DNA of 7,591 bases from Oscillospiraceae bacterium (lineage in GTDB: Bacteria; Bacillota; Clostridia; Oscillospirales; Ruminococcaceae). The position numbers and the translations under genes were made by a program. This document shows positions 2,357 through 7,591 of this stretch, one piece after another (position 1 is the first letter of the stretch; each line of letters starts with the position of its first letter). The notes beneath the pieces are model-generated. The model did not search any database. It was not told where the DNA came from and saw only the letters and a program-made list of their open reading frames with translations. Where the stretch lies: NCBI GenBank assembly GCA_016295545.1, contig JAEDLA010000065.1, forward strand, positions 1-7,591, in the 5' to 3' direction.

Positions 2357-3043
2357 TTATGCCGACTGCTGTCTGTGCTGCATTTTTTTCCAGCTGATAA
2401 AACCATAAAAATCATTTATGAGGAAAATTACAAAGCAGGATATCATGGTCAGGCATGAAATGTCGGAAACAGCTCCCAGCGTCCACAGGATAATCAGAAT
2501 AAGGTCATTTGCCGCATAGGCAAGGGCGTAAAAGGGACTTCTCCGGAAAGTAAGGTATGAAGCGGAGAAGCTTGTGGTTATCGATATGGTGCTGATAATA
2601 AGATTTGCCGTATTGAAAGCTTTCAGGATAAAATAGAAAATAAAAGTTACAACAGCTGTCAGGAAAGCAATGAACAGGTATTCCTTTCGGTCAAGACGAT
2701 TTACAGAGACTTCGGAGCTGTTTTCGCCTGACATATTTCTCAGCCATGAAATAAGAGCAAGTACAGCCATAGGTGCAGTCATTCCGAGATATGTTATCAT
2801 TTCTCCGTAGTATCGGAATCTGAAAGAAATAACAGCGTAAAGAGCAGCAAAAATAATTATAAGCACCTGTCCGACAGGATTTCCCTTTGCACAGAAAATC
2901 AGGGATGCTGCACCTATCATTGAAGCTGCAAAGGTCATATAGTTTTCTCTGTCAAAAAGCAGGAATGATACAATAATGACAAGCTCTGAAACAGCCCACA
3001 GTCCAAAATCAGTACGAGAAAAGCTGTCAAATATTTTTTTCAT
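2357..3043 (-). CDS. pnuC: PnuC-family nicotinamide riboside/NMN transporter
   Basis: This is a membrane facilitator of the PnuC family, which carries nicotinamide riboside or related pyridine compounds inward and works with downstream trapping by phosphorylation. The 228-residue protein is largely hydrophobic, with about seven predicted membrane segments. There are four in the first 102 residues, a polar loop at 103-120 (MSGENSSEVSVNRLDRKE), then three more. Family hallmarks are visible in the second half: YAANDLILIILW at 176-187 and the closing FLINDFYGFISW at 207-218, ending in a short basic tail. The start at 3043 has GGAGG about 6 nt upstream. The gene has its own consensus promoter and a structured leader, and it lies downstream of the NAD salvage operon in the same direction, separated by repeat copy B. 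Family assignment is strong. The exact substrate cannot be read from sequence; thiamine (PnuT) and riboflavin (PnuX) relatives exist, but the neighbours favour a pyridine substrate. Confidence 0.88.
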   Translation of the reverse strand: MKKIFDSFSRTDFGLWAVSELVIIVSFLLFDRENYMTFAASMIGAASLIFCAKGNPVGQVLIIIFAALYAVISFRFRYYGEMITYLGMTAPMAVLALISWLRNMSGENSSEVSVNRLDRKEYLFIAFLTAVVTFIFYFILKAFNTANLIISTISITTSFSASYLTFRRSPFYALAYAANDLILIILWTLGAVSDISCLTMISCFVIFLINDFYGFISWKKMQHRQQSA

Positions 3044-3061
3044 AAATTACCTCCAAAAAAT

Positions 3062-3114
3062 AAGCATTCATATACACATCTTCTAAGACCTGACGATGTG
3101 TAAAATGAATGCTT
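3062..3114 (-). promoter_or_regulatory. Large leader hairpin before pnuC, terminator-like
   Basis: Inside the pnuC leader, arms AAGCATTCAT (3062-3071) and ATGAATGCTT (3105-3114) form a 10-bp stem. A small A/AA internal loop then leads to a second 8-bp stem, TACACATC with GATGTGTA, capped by a 14-nt loop. On the minus strand the structure is followed by A and six Ts (3060-3055) and then directly by the GGAGG ribosome binding site. This is the layout of a transcription attenuator or a site for regulated readthrough. I cannot identify a known riboswitch, and no convincing antiterminator is visible. It might alternatively be a DNA operator or, in the other direction, a plus-strand terminator (T5 at 3113-3117). 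Confidence 0.6.
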
Positions 3115-3146
3115 TTTCACATATTATACCCGGTGGCACTGTACAT

Positions 3147-3175
3147 ATTATATCATGTATTTTTTTGTGTGTCAA
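3147..3175 (-). promoter_or_regulatory. Perfect-consensus sigma-A promoter for pnuC
   Basis: On the minus strand the -35 is TTGACA (3175-3170), the spacer is exactly 17 bp and the -10 is TATAAT (3152-3147), preceded by TGA for an extended -10. All twelve hexamer bases match consensus. Transcription should start near 3140, about 97 nt before the pnuC ATG, so the whole leader hairpin is transcribed. Such a strong promoter suggests that control happens after initiation or by a repressor. Confidence 0.88.
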
Positions 3176-3246: not shown

Positions 3247-3377
3247 AAAGCTTCGCTGCGCTTGCTTTACTGCTTTGTCAGGGGGGCTCTGCCCCCCTCT
3301 TACACCCCCTGCCAAAGGGTTAATAAACCCTTTGGAATCCCACCTTGCGGCTTCGCCGTTTTTTCTCATTAATAAAT
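3247..3377 (+). repeat. Copy B of the dispersed multi-hairpin repeat
   Basis: Non-coding, and matches copy C (7462-7591) in inverted orientation almost end to end. In order: a shared AAAGCTTCGCTGCGCT start; hairpin AGGGGGGC-TCT-GCCCCCCT (3280-3298); a conserved ACACCCCCTG link; hairpin CCAAAGGGTT/AACCCTTTGG around AATA (3312-3335); GGAATCCC; and a short hairpin CGGC-TTC-GCCG (3348-3358) followed by T6 (3359-3364), which could stop plus-strand transcription. The last shared bases, CATTAATAAAT (3367-3377), include the stop codon of the NADAR–NadE gene on the other strand. No transposase is present. Confidence 0.85.
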
Positions 3378-4523
3378 ATCTGCCAGAAATCGTGGCATAG
3401 GTTCGAGCTTGTGTCTGCTTGCCCTGTACATTCTGTCAATTTTTGCTTTAAGCTCCGGCTTATCGCTTAAATCGGTGAAACCTCTGATATAATCGTCAAG
3501 CTGAGCGTAGCTAAAGCCGAGATTTTCCTCATCAGTCTTTCCGCAAAGTCCGTCAATGGGCGTTTTGTGTACCAGATGGTAGGGAAGTCCAAGATAGTCA
3601 CCGATACCAACGACTTCAGTAACAGTCAGGTCAGAAAGAGGGCTGAAATCACCGGCACCGTCGCCGAATTTTGTTGCATAGCCAACCCAGTCCTCTGAGA
3701 GGTTGCAGGTGTTGACAACACGTCCTCCGATGCAGGCAGCGGCGGCGTACAGTACAGTCATGCGAAGCCTTGCCGGAGTATTGATTTTTGCCTGCTGAGA
3801 GATTTCTGTCTGCTTTTCAAGCTCCGTCATCAATCCCAGATAAGCCGGCTGAATGTTGACCTCCATGCATGGAATTTCCAGAGTATTAACGAGCAGTCGG
3901 CTGCAGTCAATGTCAGACTGAATGCCCTGCGGCATTAAAACGCCAAGGATTCTGTCCTTTCCGAGAGCCTGTTTGCAGAGTGCGGCAGCTACAGAGCTGT
4001 CCTTGCCGCCGGATATTCCGATAACAGCCTTTGTATCGGGAGAAGCATTTTCTTCAAAATAAGCTTTTATCCAGCTTATGATTTTTTCCGCAGTTTCAGC
4101 GGCATCAAATCCTCTGAATTCATTTCGTATCTGCATGAGGATTCTTCCAAGATAATTTTCGCCTGTTCCGTCGCCCATGCCCCAGAAAACATCTCCCCAG
4201 TCATTGCCCTCAATAAGCTCCTCATGACCTGTTTCAATAAGCTTTTCACAGAGGGCAGGATTTTGTTCGAATTTTGCCCTGCAAACTCTGTACATTTCCT
4301 TTACCTTGATTTTTTCCCAGTCAGACCTGAGATTTACTGCTCTGCCCCTGCTTTTTGCAGCATCAGGACTTAAATCAGCAAATTCCCTGCGAAGTGCAGG
4401 TTCAGCGGCTTTCTGTGCCTGAAAGGCTGCCTCGCTGTTTCTGAAAGTGATACCGTCCACAGTAACCGGACATTCATAATAATTGCTTAAAAAGCTGTAT
4501 GTTCCGCTAAATGCATTAATCAT
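3369..4523 (-). CDS. nadE: Fusion of a NADAR domain and NAD(+) synthetase
   Basis: This is a two-domain protein of 384 residues. Residues 1 to about 138 are a NADAR (YbiA-like) domain: FLSNYYECPV (11-20), NSEAAFQAQK with Glu31 and Lys38, and a C-terminal WGDVFWGMGDGTGENYLG stretch (109-126). NADAR proteins are N-glycosidases acting on ribose-linked N-C bonds, including riboflavin intermediates and ADP-ribosylated guanine. Residues about 143-384 are an NAD synthetase, which adenylates and amidates nicotinate adenine dinucleotide to NAD. It has the PP-loop SGGKDSS (171-177), ARLRMTVLY (251-259), NLSEDWVGYATKFGDGAGD (274-292) and a KTDEENLG segment near the end. No glutaminase domain is present, so ammonia should be the nitrogen donor. 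It is the last gene of the operon. The ATG overlaps the nadV stop by one base (TGATG), with GGAGG 9 nt upstream. Both domain calls are firm; what NADAR does for the synthetase is unknown. Confidence 0.9.
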   Translation of the reverse strand: MINAFSGTYSFLSNYYECPVTVDGITFRNSEAAFQAQKAAEPALRREFADLSPDAAKSRGRAVNLRSDWEKIKVKEMYRVCRAKFEQNPALCEKLIETGHEELIEGNDWGDVFWGMGDGTGENYLGRILMQIRNEFRGFDAAETAEKIISWIKAYFEENASPDTKAVIGISGGKDSSVAAALCKQALGKDRILGVLMPQGIQSDIDCSRLLVNTLEIPCMEVNIQPAYLGLMTELEKQTEISQQAKINTPARLRMTVLYAAAACIGGRVVNTCNLSEDWVGYATKFGDGAGDFSPLSDLTVTEVVGIGDYLGLPYHLVHKTPIDGLCGKTDEENLGFSYAQLDDYIRGFTDLSDKPELKAKIDRMYRASRHKLEPMPRFLADIY

Positions 4524-6049
4524 CAGAATTTACCTCCATGTAATCTGTTCCGGATTTCAGCAAGCGAATATTCTCTGAGCATTCTGCCGTCTCTGAACAC
4601 CGGCACAAACATATTTATATCAGCAGTTTCCTTAATAGTATCGGTAGTGTATCCGTCCCTGCATACTATCTCACCATTGTCGTCTTTGTAAACGCAGCAC
4701 ATTCCTCTGTGAGATTTCTTGCTTATTTCGTGATTGGGGGAATCCTCCACAGCAATGAATTCACCGTTAATTTTTCTGTAGTTTTTGGGAGCCTTGAAAA
4801 TTGGAATCTGCTTACCGTTTTTATCCTCGCAGTAGGTAGCTTTTACTGCAATATGGAATGTATCACGGGTAAACGGAGCAAGGGTATCACCTGTTTCAAG
4901 GCACTGCATTGAGAAGCTGCCTGCGCCCAGTACAACGTTATTGCAGGCAAAGCTCTTTTCAATAAGCACATTGTAAATAGCCTCTGCACGCTGAGGAGTA
5001 ATAGAATCCCCGTAAATAGCCCTTACATGATTGTCGAGAACCTTATACCCCTTGCTGTTGACAGTTCCGCCGAAGATATCCCATAATCTGAAAACTGTCT
5101 CTGTAACGACTTCCACAGGGTCACCGCTGTCGCCTCTGATGAGAAGCGTCCCGTTATGGTTCATGATTTCCTCTTTAAGCTGGGGCAGAATATTATTGAC
5201 TACGTTCCAGTAATCGTAGCTGTCGGAAACTACGGAGAATGATGTGTCAGGATAAAGCTCCGTAAGAAGTCTCCTGAACATTGTTATCTCATCACCGTCA
5301 AAGGCATAGTTTGAGCACATTACCGAATGTTCCGTTGAAACAGCACCATAGGCAACAGGTTCTTTGGTGCAGTCACAGTTATAGTATTTTTCAAGGTAGG
5401 GAACAGCCGGAACAGTTGCTGTATTGAGAAATGACAAGCAGAACGCAGCGGAAGATTTTACAGCGGAGGAAAGTGATTCCTGACCTCTGAAAGAGAAATC
5501 ACCCAGTGCCTTTGCTCTCGGAACATCGTCTTCTGTGCTGATATCGTAATATTTGTTGACTATCTGCCTGTACATATATCCGACATTGGCAGAAATCATG
5601 CCGTGCCACATTTCAGCAGAGAGAACGCTTTCAATGTACTCCACTATCCATGGGAAATCGGGGTGAGTATTAGTCAGCTGAATCATTGGAACTTTTACCG
5701 GAACAATGGTACCCTCCGGAAGTGCGGAGACTTCAATGGGTAGATAGCCAAGCTTGTGGAGATTCCTTATCATTTCCTTGTTGTAAGCCTGGGGACCGAG
5801 GGTATTATCGATAATGCGGAAGTACTCCTCTGTGACAGCTTCAAAGGGCTTGCCAAAAAAATCCCTGTCGAAAGCTTCTATCATAAATTCCTTGATAAAA
5901 GCCTGTAAACCAAACATTATCAGCTTTTCCTCTCCCTTTATTCTTGAACCTCTTGGAGTAAGGTATGAAACGATTTTTGAGAGGTCAGCAGGGTACATTT
6001 TTGCGTGTGTAGCTTTATAAAAATCAATATTGAGCATAGGATTTGCCAT
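4523..6049 (-). CDS. nadV: NAMPT/NadV-family pyridine phosphoribosyltransferase, Asp219-equivalent replaced by Ala
   Basis: The family transfers phosphoribose from PRPP to nicotinamide, giving NMN. The 508-residue protein aligns with human NAMPT from NIDFYKATH (7-15, with Tyr11 matching Tyr18) to the C-terminus. It has GDFSFRG (183-189, with Phe185 and Arg188 matching Phe193 and Arg196), TEHSV (His241 matching catalytic His247), VVSDSYD (273-279) and IRGDSGDP (Arg305 and Asp307 matching Arg311 and Asp313). The exception is FLNTATVPA, where Ala211 replaces Asp219 of human NAMPT, the residue that contacts the carboxamide and selects nicotinamide. Spacing from Phe185 and to the YY pair (222-223) matches exactly, so the alignment is reliable. 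The neighbours make nicotinate a plausible substrate. I chose the ATG at 6049 (MANPMLNID): AAGGA lies 9 nt upstream, while for the ATG at 6058 it would be only one base away. It follows prs by 14 nt. Confidence 0.9.
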   Translation of the reverse strand: MANPMLNIDFYKATHAKMYPADLSKIVSYLTPRGSRIKGEEKLIMFGLQAFIKEFMIEAFDRDFFGKPFEAVTEEYFRIIDNTLGPQAYNKEMIRNLHKLGYLPIEVSALPEGTIVPVKVPMIQLTNTHPDFPWIVEYIESVLSAEMWHGMISANVGYMYRQIVNKYYDISTEDDVPRAKALGDFSFRGQESLSSAVKSSAAFCLSFLNTATVPAVPYLEKYYNCDCTKEPVAYGAVSTEHSVMCSNYAFDGDEITMFRRLLTELYPDTSFSVVSDSYDYWNVVNNILPQLKEEIMNHNGTLLIRGDSGDPVEVVTETVFRLWDIFGGTVNSKGYKVLDNHVRAIYGDSITPQRAEAIYNVLIEKSFACNNVVLGAGSFSMQCLETGDTLAPFTRDTFHIAVKATYCEDKNGKQIPIFKAPKNYRKINGEFIAVEDSPNHEISKKSHRGMCCVYKDDNGEIVCRDGYTTDTIKETADINMFVPVFRDGRMLREYSLAEIRNRLHGGKF

Positions 6050-6063
6050 AAAAACCATTCCTT

Positions 6064-6894
6064 TCAGTTAAGGCAGTCAAGTATAAAAAGCTTATGAGTA
6101 TCATTAAGAGTACACAGCGAATTTGTGGTGTAGATACGGTGAATCAGGTCGCCTTTGAGAAGCTCACCCTTTTCAATTGAGTTTTCGCAGTGAGTGAAAA
6201 ATACGTCAATATTTTTGCAGCCCATGCTTTTCAGTTTTTTCGCCGAGTGAAAAACAGTTCCTCCGTATGAGCATATATCGTCAATAATAAAAACATTTCT
6301 GTCTTTCGGCGAATCTCCCGCAATGTCCAGACCAAGAATTTTGCCGGTAGACCAGTCTCTTTTCTTTATACCGAAGCCTGTGTGCTTACAGTCAGGAAAC
6401 AATCCGGAATACCTTTTGCAGCTGCCCTCATCGGGGAAGAAGATGTAGTCATTTATGATGTCGAAACCGGAGCTTTTTATTGCTTCACGGATATATTTTT
6501 TCGGAGAGAGATTAGTACACCTGTCCAGCAGAGCCGCTCCGACACTGGAGTGAACATCAAGGACAATAACCCTTGAAAAGCCGAGAGAATTTATCATCTG
6601 ACAAAAATATTTCAGTGTAAAGACTTCATAGTCGTTGTGAACTCTGTCCATTCTTGCGTTGGGAAGATAGGGGAGGTAAAGCTCTGTATCTGCATGAGGA
6701 AAGCGTTCCTGCACGTTTTTGGCAAGATAAGCCAGGATAAGCATTTCCTCCTCTTTTTCGTACTTCCACGTAAAGCGGAAATAATCGTTCTGACTTATGC
6801 CTGAAAGCTCTAAATCAATTTTAAATGTGCCGTCGGGGTATCTTATAATCTCCGGATAAATAATTTCACCGGATTTGAGCAAGAGGTTTATCAT
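6064..6894 (-). CDS. prs: Ribose-phosphate pyrophosphokinase-like protein (PRPP synthetase)
   Basis: The family makes PRPP from ribose 5-phosphate and ATP in the cytoplasm; here PRPP would feed the next gene's phosphoribosyltransferase. The 276-residue protein keeps the main marks of the family: YPDG near the N-terminus (19-22), YLPNARMDR (76-84) at the ATP-binding ARQDR position, LDVHSS (112-117), PDEG (154-157), KKRD (177-180) and the PRPP loop IIDDICSYGGT (203-213). It is shorter than housekeeping Prs (about 310-320 residues). It lacks the usual SGNA-type N-terminus and resembles short Prs-like proteins of phage NAD-salvage clusters; that likeness is from memory. I prefer the ATG at 6894, with AAAGGAG 5 nt upstream. 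An in-frame ATG at 6909 overlaps the previous stop but has no ribosome binding site. It lies 11 nt after the hydrolase gene, so the two are co-transcribed. Confidence 0.85.
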   Translation of the reverse strand: MINLLLKSGEIIYPEIIRYPDGTFKIDLELSGISQNDYFRFTWKYEKEEEMLILAYLAKNVQERFPHADTELYLPYLPNARMDRVHNDYEVFTLKYFCQMINSLGFSRVIVLDVHSSVGAALLDRCTNLSPKKYIREAIKSSGFDIINDYIFFPDEGSCKRYSGLFPDCKHTGFGIKKRDWSTGKILGLDIAGDSPKDRNVFIIDDICSYGGTVFHSAKKLKSMGCKNIDVFFTHCENSIEKGELLKGDLIHRIYTTNSLCTLNDTHKLFILDCLN

Positions 6895-6905
6895 ACTGTC
6901 TCCTT

Positions 6906-7442
6906 TCATATAACGGTAATCTGACAGATTTTCATAGCTTCAAGTGCATTTTTGTGGGTTTCGGGAGAAACACCGGCACAGCAGCTGCTGTCAACGATTA
7001 TTTCGGCTTCGGGGAAAAATGCTTTGAGCAGCATTGCGTTTGAGATTACGCATATATCAGTGCAGACACCGAAAAGCTCAATTTCATCGGGGGATTCACC
7101 GCATATTCCGGTGATTATCTCCGGCAGTTCCTTTGCTCCGAAGGTGCATTTTTTAACCTGCTGCTTTTTTGATACACAAGACATGGCATTTTTTAACTCA
7201 TCAGGAAGCTCCCAGCCCGGAGTTCCTTCGATACAGTGAGGAACGGGAAGCTTTCTGCCCTCCTGAGTATCCATGTAGCTGTTCTGGTGCGTATCCATAG
7301 TGTAAAGAAGCACAGCATTTTCATCAGCTCCGATTTTCTTGACCTTTTCGCAGACAGCCGGAAGAACTGCCGTTGTATCGGGGTTACCAAGAACTCCGCT
7401 GATAAAGTCATTCTGCATATCGATCATAATAAAAGCTTTCAT
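6906..7442 (-). CDS. Isochorismatase-family cysteine hydrolase, probable nicotinamidase
   Basis: Nicotinamidase hydrolyses nicotinamide to nicotinate and ammonia. The 178-residue protein has the family's catalytic triad: Asp8 in MIDMQNDF, a Lys at 97/98 in QVKKCTFG, and Cys131 in GVCTDICVISNA (125-136), where the preceding residues form the oxyanion region. Metal-site candidates are Asp50 and His52 (TMDTH) and His69 (PHCIEGTPGW). The second His of classical PncA (H57 in the Asp-x-His-x5-His pattern) is missing; the equivalent stretch reads QNSYMDTQEG. The superfamily also includes other amide hydrolases, so the nicotinamide assignment rests mainly on the operon: PRPP synthetase, NadV-like enzyme and NAD synthetase follow directly. 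ATG at 7442 has AGGAG 9 nt upstream. No clear promoter is visible between it and repeat copy C, so the promoter may lie within or beyond the repeat. Confidence 0.8.
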   Translation of the reverse strand: MKAFIMIDMQNDFISGVLGNPDTTAVLPAVCEKVKKIGADENAVLLYTMDTHQNSYMDTQEGRKLPVPHCIEGTPGWELPDELKNAMSCVSKKQQVKKCTFGAKELPEIITGICGESPDEIELFGVCTDICVISNAMLLKAFFPEAEIIVDSSCCAGVSPETHKNALEAMKICQITVI

Positions 7443-7461: not shown

Positions 7462-7591
7462 ATTTATTAATGTGGTAAAAAGCGGCGAAGCCGCACGGGG
7501 GATTCCAAAGGGTATAAACCCTTTGGCAGGGGGTGTACGAGGGGGACAGAGTCCCCCTGACAAACCAGTAAAGCCAGCGCAGCGAAGCTTT
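7462..7591 (-). repeat. Copy C of the dispersed multi-hairpin repeat
   Basis: This is an inverted counterpart of copy B, cut by the window end. From the gene outward it holds the 11-mer ATTTATTAATG (7462-7472); an A5 run (7477-7481) with hairpin GCGGC-GAA-GCCGC (7482-7494), which on the minus strand reads as a short terminator with T5; hairpin CCAAAGGGT/ACCCTTTGG around ATAA (7505-7526); and hairpin AGGGGGAC-AGA-GTCCCCCT (7540-7558). An AGCGCAGCGAAGCTTT end (7576-7591) follows. The terminator-like end points at the operon start, so it may insulate the operon from upstream transcription. No coding sequence is recognised. Confidence 0.85.

Follow-up and report, generated by a model that had tools for sequence, protein, structure and literature searches.

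The window, by which we mean the whole 7,591-nucleotide stretch of DNA that was analysed (Oscillospiraceae contig JAEDLA010000065.1), contains a tightly packed minus-strand operon of four genes, encoding a PncA-like protein, a kinase of the PRPP synthetase fold, a NAMPT-family protein and a NADAR-NadE fusion (Table 1). By their coordinates, the genes for the PncA-like protein and the kinase overlap by four bases, and those for the transferase and the NADAR-NadE fusion have one base in common. Residues of the transferase are numbered here with the ATG at 6058 as the first codon; a second ATG in the same frame, at 6049, is better spaced from an upstream AAAGGA and is the likelier start. Rfam gave no matches within the window. 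What we say of NARP systems is taken from PMC12774641 and PMC11559045.

Table 1. Features of the window, with coordinates, strand and basis or correspondence
Feature	Position	Strand	Basis or correspondence
PncA-like nicotinamidase, 178 aa, operon gene 1	6906..7442	-	isochorismatase Pfam above cut-off
Adps-like kinase, 281 aa, predicted ADPR-PP maker	6064..6909	-	similarity to SPbetaL1 Adps
Namat-like transferase, 511 aa counted from 6058, predicted nicotinate transferase	4523..6058	-	homology, fold
Arg39 codon	5942..5944	-	equivalent of adenine-stacking Arg40 of SPbetaL1 Namat (PMC12774641)
Lys183 codon, proposed carboxylate partner	5510..5512	-	column of human Tyr188
Gly186 codon	5501..5503	-	column of human His191 / Namat His187
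Asn212 codon	5423..5425	-	column of human Gly217
Ala214 codon GCA	5417..5419	-	column of human Asp219 / Xcc Asp203 / Namat Asp215
Clamp segment, residues 380-399, GSFSMQCLETGDTLAPFTRD	4862..4921	-	Namat motif from PMC12774641
NADAR-NadE fusion, 384 aa	3369..4523	-	NADAR about 4113-4502; NAD synthase about 3402-4088
Repeat copy, operon downstream boundary	3247..3364	.	inverted relative to the 7477-7591 copy
Repeat copy, operon upstream boundary	7477..7591	.	extends to window end

Proteins of the operon

The best solved match of the PncA-like protein is the pyrazinamidase/nicotinamidase of P. horikoshii (1ilw/1im5; E 4.7e-16). What we take to be its triad (Asp8, Lys98 and Cys131) and metal ligands (Asp50, His52 and His69) are conserved in the PncAs of the module, all six in 59 of 59 proteins except Cys131, which is found in 58. 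Since it scores only 22.2 bits against the nicotinamidase equivalog PRK11609 (cut-off 174), we refer to the gene as 'PncA-like'. The fusion protein contains a NADAR domain (93.8 bits, residues 8-137) and a NAD_synthase domain (173.5 bits, residues 146-374), both above the Pfam cut-offs; its score for TIGR00552 (nadE) is 172.9 bits against a cut-off of 63.65, and the ATP-binding SGGxDS residues occur in 64 of 64 module NadEs. An earlier, sequence-only reading of this DNA had proposed a probable nicotinamidase and a NAD synthetase in the operon; the Pfam match and conserved residues fit the former, and the TIGR00552 score the latter. It is a speculation, by analogy, that the NADAR domain supplies additional ADP-ribose, as does RyDEP, a NARP1-linked glycosidase that feeds ADP-ribose into NARP1 (PMC13232231).

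The kinase is named ribose-phosphate pyrophosphokinase or diphosphokinase in NCBIfam, PHROGs and phage records. In sequence, it matches SPbetaL1 Adps with 147 bits (41.6% identity over 197 residues) and the six Prs proteins of relatives' genomes with at most 55.8 bits, and falls below the TIGR01251 cut-off (95 versus 113 bits). In a tree it lies with Adps in a group of 68 rows to the exclusion of Prs (SH-aLRT 99); the Prs set consists of the six of 14 candidate loci that yielded a sequence by a motif filter, four of which were left in the tree after thinning. An ordinary PRPP synthetase was therefore dropped as a candidate, since in both scores and tree the kinase is nearer to Adps than to the six Prs. 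We predict from this similarity that it makes ADPR-PP from ADP-ribose.

The nearest solved relative of the transferase is Namat, by both sequence and fold. A Foldseek search with its AlphaFold model (mean pLDDT 93.7, pTM 0.91) ranks the Namat chains 9w5x/9w5w first (ranks 1-7), then H. ducreyi NadV and then human NAMPT, and phmmer gives the same order, with 360 bits to 9w5x versus 272 to H. ducreyi NadV. Within NARP1, Namat couples nicotinamide with ADPR-PP supplied by Adps, an enzyme that parallels PRPP synthetase; ADPR-PP is the preferred donor of Namat, with PRPP still usable in vitro (PMC12774641). The transferase has equivalents of the NAMPT catalytic residues His247, Phe193, Arg311 and Asp313 (His244, Phe188, Arg308 and Asp310) and, in both NCBIfam and PHROGs, falls into a family named for nicotinamide/nicotinate phosphoribosyltransferase. 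It scores 18.7 bits against TIGR01513 (NAPRT; cut-off 297.4) and 442 against PRK09198 (cut-off 405); the latter is titled nicotinate phosphoribosyltransferase, a title that probably does not tell nicotinamide from nicotinate.

The Asp219 column and its gene neighbourhood

The sequence-only reading had noted Ala in the transferase where human NAMPT has Asp219, and the minus-strand codon indeed encodes Ala (residue 211 from the ATG at 6049, 214 from that at 6058). Human positions in this column and its neighbours are given by a constant offset of five, taken from Phe193, Arg196 and Asp219, rather than read from a human sequence alignment. In five family members with solved structures, the TDT-motif Asp (Asp203 in Xcc NAMPT) aligns gap-free with Ala214. 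Ala is found in 119 of the 120 homologues listed of 7944 matches, and Ser in the remaining one, so that neither a read error, which had already been thought unlikely, nor chance accounts for the residue. The flanking anchors also stand: Phe188, Arg191 and His244 do not vary across 66 Ala/Ser rows and 134 Asp/Glu rows. Arg308 and Asp310 are found in 66 of 66 Ala/Ser and 133 of 134 Asp/Glu rows, the remaining one having a gap. Ala/Ser at the Asp219 column is thus a clade-wide state.

The first 27 loci, from genomes and viral contigs (Ala in 22, Ser in five), all carry PncA-like and kinase genes, with the PncA of L025 in two pieces, and 26 of them carry NadE. Asp-type controls came from 12 phage records (two proved to have Ala, ten Asp/Glu), 15 loci obtained with a query from a Staphylococcus phage and 80 loci found by an alignment query. 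L028-L048, L076, L082 and L083, which are either other phosphoribosyltransferases or further pieces of genomes already sampled, were left out before counting, as was L077, a distant protein (26% identity) with the column unaligned and no module gene found. Once 11 duplicates had been set aside from 134 loci, 123 remained, 64 with Ala/Ser and 59 with Asp/Glu; column 214 defines the two groups and is by itself not evidence. PncA and/or NadE occur in 64 of the 64 Ala/Ser loci (PncA-like in 58, NadE in 63) and in none of the 59 Asp/Glu loci. The co-occurrence with an adjacent nicotinamidase and NadE that the sequence-only reading had proposed checking is thus found. Six Ala/Ser loci lack PncA; all of them except L108 are truncated within 1.8 kb on the upstream side of the transferase gene. 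NADAR matches occur in 17 of the 64 Ala/Ser loci versus three of the 59 Asp/Glu loci, leaving 47 Ala/Ser loci without one.

The same association is seen when whole virus records, which may be fragments, are compared (50 in total, 25 per type). Isochorismatase is found in 25/25 Ala/Ser versus 0/25 Asp/Glu records; a strong NAD_synthase match is present in 25/25 of the former, and the latter give three weak partial matches (two above the family cut-off) and no full-length one. PF01467 (NMNAT/NaMNAT) is found in five of the 25 records of each type and is uninformative. A survey of the phylum with PRK09198 matched six of 398 genomes, with one above the cut-off, which was G003 itself; the gene is so rare there that the survey is useless for correlation.

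In a 103-row tree, which was thinned at 90% identity and leaves out five partial rows, the Ala/Ser proteins form one clade with one residue change, joined on a long branch by Phass-1, a human-gut phage (support 89). Without Phass-1 and L060, the Ala/Ser clade of a 52-row tree has an SH-aLRT of 100. Because there is one change on the tree, the perfect association of residue and genes is close to a single event. In an AU test on the 52-row tree, a single clade of all Asp/Glu rows was not rejected (p 0.8), so that the test gives no support for descent from within Namat.

An independent second origin of the Ala/Ser switch was sought through scans with Phass-1. The Phass-1 protein alone gave no matches. 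An alignment led by it gave 80 loci, 76 of them with new locus ids, and 75 of these 76 are Asp/Glu loci without PncA or NadE. The sole Ala locus (L236), which has both PncA and NadE, lies on the same contig as the already known L090, and others likewise come from contigs fetched earlier. A tblastn search of the protein against phages listed 15 of 1915 records, of which the SPbetaL1 record alone was examined afterwards. These scans leave Ala/Ser as a single clade.

The sequence-only reading had also stated that no NAPRT gene is present. This holds within the window and only partly in the genomes of 15 relatives: a second PF04095 protein is absent from nine, including the four closest, and present in six as a canonical NAPRT/PncB. 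Nearly all 15 are MAGs of unstated completeness, so that absence is weak evidence. NadD is above the cut-off in 13 of the 15. In addition, nadC and a second NAD_synthase match (E < 1e-20) are each found in 12 of the 15 genomes, which suggests that in bacteria the module is likely to be an extra route.

Base pocket and adenine clamp

Columns 183, 186, 214, 238, 239, 241 and 306 split the 66 Ala/Ser rows from the 134 Asp/Glu rows with zero overlap, the rows including re-fetched records. Column 212 is always Gly in the Asp/Glu rows (134 of 134); in the Ala/Ser rows it is Asn (49), Lys (14), Gly (two) or Arg (one). By the offset of five, columns 183, 186, 212 and 214 correspond to human Tyr188, His191, Gly217 and Asp219, which form a hydrogen-bonded tunnel wall (PMC4186856). 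In the alignment, columns 239 and 306 hold Ile224 and Val291 of Xcc NAMPT, which line a second nicotinamide in the tunnel (PMC10907753). When counted by locus, column 186 is His in 59/59 Asp/Glu loci and Gly, Ala or Ser in 64/64 Ala/Ser loci. Exactly one Lys/Arg at column 183 or 212 is seen in 60 of the 64 Ala/Ser loci (four have none) and in none of the 59 Asp/Glu loci, a post hoc count, as the two columns were chosen after the column comparison had been viewed. The Ala group mostly combines Lys/Arg183 with Asn212, and the Ser group Met183 with Lys212. The loss of an acid and the gain of a base would fit a carboxylate ligand.

Other enzymes bear on the choice of base. Seven PncB-type proteins, from the relatives' genomes and one further genome, have Ala (four) or Ser (three) at the profile-equivalent column, and the six of them that were scanned are above the NAPRT cut-off. 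NAPRT has Ser at the Asp219 column, and the Asp has been argued to favour nicotinamide over nicotinate (PMC10907753). The D215A mutation, which makes the change seen naturally in the window transferase, lowers the nicotinamide-dependent NAD+ production of Namat about 8.1-fold, and the nicotinamide contacts of that enzyme, Phe189, Arg192, Arg306 and Tyr15 (PMC12774641), are kept in the window transferase by alignment. Structure titles record crystals of human NAMPT, with its Asp, holding nicotinic acid and NaMN, so that the Asp is not an absolute bar to nicotinate. In bacteria, PncA and Nampt are reported to exclude one another (PMC9316036), so that a partner of PncA that uses nicotinamide is unlikely. 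The use of nicotinate by the window transferase is well supported by indirect evidence.

On the donor side, the clamp of the window transferase keeps the GSF and TRD of the Namat motif, contains an insert and is missing the second aromatic (Tyr396). The full Namat motif, GSX-Phi-X-Phi-X-Phi-TRD in which positions 3 and 7 are aromatic, does not describe it; position 7 is non-aromatic and, with the insert, this leads us to file the protein as a Namat-related variant rather than as a Namat. The adenine-stacking residue in SCL (Arg, Lys or Tyr) is present as Arg39. When the 64 Ala/Ser loci are taken together with the window protein, the column of the adenine-stacking Phe392 is Phe/Tyr in 65/65 and Thr398 and Asp400 are kept in 65/65; the Arg40 column is Arg in 49 and Met in 12, and the Tyr396 column is Tyr in one, with an insert there in most rows. 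In Namat, the R40A/F392G mutant lost about 16.6-fold, and the Y396K pairs 2.4- and 4.3-fold (PMC12774641). By the motif of the same paper, most Asp/Glu controls resemble Namat: 52 of the 59 have GS[FY]...TRD, four a Nampt-like GG and three neither; the regular expression missed seven Ala/Ser and three Asp/Glu loci, which the aligned clamp counts include. The loss of Tyr396 and the insert could mean a return to PRPP. NaAD nevertheless appears a likelier product than NaMN, because the transferase is Namat-like in sequence and fold and its neighbour is Adps-like rather than Prs-like. Thus, of the nicotinate phosphoribosyltransferase of NAMPT fold that the sequence-only reading had suggested, the nicotinate part is favoured by the association with PncA and NadE, the Ala/Ser of PncB and the D215A effect, and the phosphoribosyl part is probably wrong; we predict that the enzyme joins its pyridine base to ADPR-PP.

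A predicted deamidated route to NAD+

Gene content, the association of residue and genes, the pocket replacements and the closeness to Namat and Adps, together with a predicted fold, lead us to propose, with somewhat better than even confidence, that the operon is a deamidated NARP1, in which the Ala214 enzyme would join nicotinate to ADPR-PP and give NaAD directly. The PncA-like enzyme would convert nicotinamide to nicotinate, and the Adps-like kinase would make ADPR-PP from ATP and ADP-ribose, its inferred substrate. The Namat-like enzyme, in which the Asp that binds the amide is missing along with its His partner and a Lys/Arg has been gained on the same wall, would then combine nicotinate and ADPR-PP, both presumed substrates, into NaAD, which NadE would amidate to NAD+. 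Such a route would use the four genes present and make a NadD adenylyltransferase unnecessary. It would start from nicotinamide and ADP-ribose, the two molecules that NAD+-cleaving defences produce, and its physiological role may be anti-defence in phages and an extra NAD+ restoring route in bacteria. The clearest case of the module is Phass-1, which has Ala at the column, clamp aromatics (GAYTYQYVTRD), one Arg at 212, an annotated nicotinamidase, a kinase that scores 115 bits to Adps versus at most 51.6 to Prs, and NadE.

The main competitor, which we regard as rather unlikely though still of some weight, is a nicotinate phosphoribosyltransferase in the strict sense, which would make NaMN from nicotinate and PRPP, with the kinase supplying PRPP, the NadD of the cell forming NaAD and the NadE of the operon completing NAD+. 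All the base-side evidence fits it equally well, and such a route would work too in the 13 of 15 relatives with NadD; the canonical PncB found in six of the 15 genomes also counts against the deamidated NARP1 reading. The loss of the adenine-clamp Tyr396 would suit PRPP, but Phe392 and Thr398/Asp400 of the clamp are kept throughout. Namat itself uses PRPP in vitro (PMC12774641), yet it is Namat and not NAMPT that is the nearest solved relative, and the kinase, whatever its name in NCBIfam, PHROGs and phage records, is closer to Adps than to the six Prs. Moreover, the module brings a kinase and NadE and no adenylyltransferase, PF01467 being found in only five of 25 Ala/Ser records.

It is improbable that the enzyme has kept nicotinamide as a substrate, alone or next to nicotinate, like Namat, with PncA and NadE handling spill-over or a separate nicotinate branch. 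The family names that cover nicotinamide, the retained Namat contacts Phe189, Arg192, Arg306 and Tyr15, and the human NAMPT crystals with both bases (by their titles) would allow this, but the amide-binding Asp and its His partner are gone clade-wide with a Lys/Arg gained, loss of the Asp costs Namat about 8.1-fold (PMC12774641), and in nine of the 15 genomes there is no PncB that could consume the nicotinate made by PncA. A product other than NAD+, such as NaAD or a related dinucleotide serving as a signal, or a NADAR-directed repair of ADP-ribosylated bases, is very improbable. Many pocket columns have changed together and NADAR, fused to NadE in the window, is commoner in Ala/Ser loci, but it is missing from 47 of the 64, and the conserved PncA active site and NadE motifs fit a route to NAD+ without further assumptions.

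The operon resembles several known systems and differs from each. Like NARP1 (for example in Bacillus phage SPbetaL1 and Paenibacillus foliorum), it has a Namat-like gene, with a product of the same fold, immediately preceded by an Adps-like gene, keeps most clamp residues and occurs in both phages and bacterial chromosomes. It differs in the replacement of Asp215 and His187, the gain of Lys/Arg, the loss of Tyr396 with an insert, and the addition of PncA and NadE; its base and product are predicted to be nicotinate and NaAD, versus nicotinamide and NAD+. NAMPT/NadV (human, Xcc, H. ducreyi), which converts nicotinamide and PRPP to NMN (PMC10907753), shares the fold and catalytic residues. Unlike it, the window transferase is without equivalents of Asp219 and His191, has GSF at the clamp where NAMPT has GG, and is linked to PncA and NadE. 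Canonical NAPRT/PncB has Ala/Ser at the Asp219 column and nicotinate as base, as predicted here, but uses PRPP and is distant from the window transferase (hhalign probability 97.4%, 22% identity). The Preiss-Handler pathway (PncA-PncB-NadD-NadE) also has PncA first, NadE last and NaAD as final intermediate, whereas the window route is predicted to bypass NaMN and NadD by way of ADPR-PP. Phages also carry a NadV plus NadM/NadR salvage, which is NARP2-like. Like the window operon it is a phage-borne rebuilding of NAD+ with a NAMPT-family enzyme, but by an amidated route with an adenylyltransferase, and the main text of PMC9503650 makes no mention of nicotinamidase, PncA or NadE. In the literature searched (titles and abstract openings, with most subscription journals outside its coverage), we found no description of a nicotinate-using Namat, of a PncA-Adps-Namat-NadE module, or of the reaction of nicotinate and ADPR-PP to NaAD.

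Phages counter NAD+-destroying immunity by rebuilding NAD+. We consider it slightly better than an even call that the module is a new NAD+ reconstitution pathway of phages and gut bacteria, which returns NADase debris to NAD+ via deamidated intermediates only, with a nicotinate ADP-ribose transferase as a new reaction and the base-pocket charge of a Namat-type enzyme reversed. If so, it would add a further route, via nicotinate and NaAD, for which an adenylyltransferase is unnecessary. It would also be a natural reversal of base specificity in a NAMPT-type fold, readable from columns 183, 186, 212 and 214, and genes now named nicotinamide or nicotinate phosphoribosyltransferase would become sortable by sequence. 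The module turns a standing ambiguity over base and donor into one that is testable with four proteins.

Setting and boundaries of the operon

Judging by the neighbouring genes, which encode a prephenate dehydrogenase, an SH3-domain amidase and a transporter of the PnuC family, the window looks chromosomal rather than phage-derived. The operon is bounded exactly by inverted copies of an intergenic repeat (3247-3325 and 7513-7591; 79 nt, 92% complementary), which may delimit a movable cassette or may belong to a repeat common in the genome.

Features flanking or associated with the operon in the window
Feature	Position	Strand	Remark
Prephenate dehydrogenase	246-1106	minus	
N-acetylmuramoyl-L-alanine amidase	1323-2060	plus	with SH3 domain
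PnuC-family transporter	2357-3043	minus	
pnuC leader	3030-3175	minus	promoter match, then hairpin
NADAR-NadE	3369-4523	minus	one fused gene, NADAR domain at the N terminus of NadE
Intergenic repeat	1-60, 3247-3364, 7477-7591		copies of one sequence

Copies and variants of the module in other loci

A module closely matching that of Thomasclavelia cocleata is present on viral contig 2574179769_000003 (L025/L114 and L015 among the comparison loci); the viral copy has both its PncA and its transferase broken into two frames. The module also occurs on a 4725-base contig (L006) from a metagenome-assembled genome named as the archaeon Candidatus Methanofilum arcanum, where its presence may reflect either misbinning or transfer. 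Among the homologues listed for the transferase is a 582-residue protein of 75% identity (P0008), which is possibly a regulator-enzyme fusion, since its precomputed Pfam domains include the helix-turn-helix families PF12844, PF01381 and PF13560.

A small Namat-like group (L051, L144 and L218), to which Prevotella phage Lak-B4 belongs, has Glu in place of Asp at column 214 (SETVP) and His at column 186, the position of human His191. Neither PncA nor NadE was found in these three loci.

The NADAR-NadE fusion and the pnuC leader

The NADAR and NadE matches share a single frame in the relatives L001-L004, and occupy separate frames in L015 and other loci. In the window, the fusion gene shares its operon with a kinase that is predicted to use ADP-ribose.

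In the pnuC leader, a 12/12 promoter match (3175-3147, minus strand) is followed by a long hairpin (-31.7 kcal/mol, z -3.56) that ends in a T run immediately 5' of the ribosome-binding site. The hairpin has no match in Rfam. This leader is a possible attenuator or regulator site of the transporter gene.
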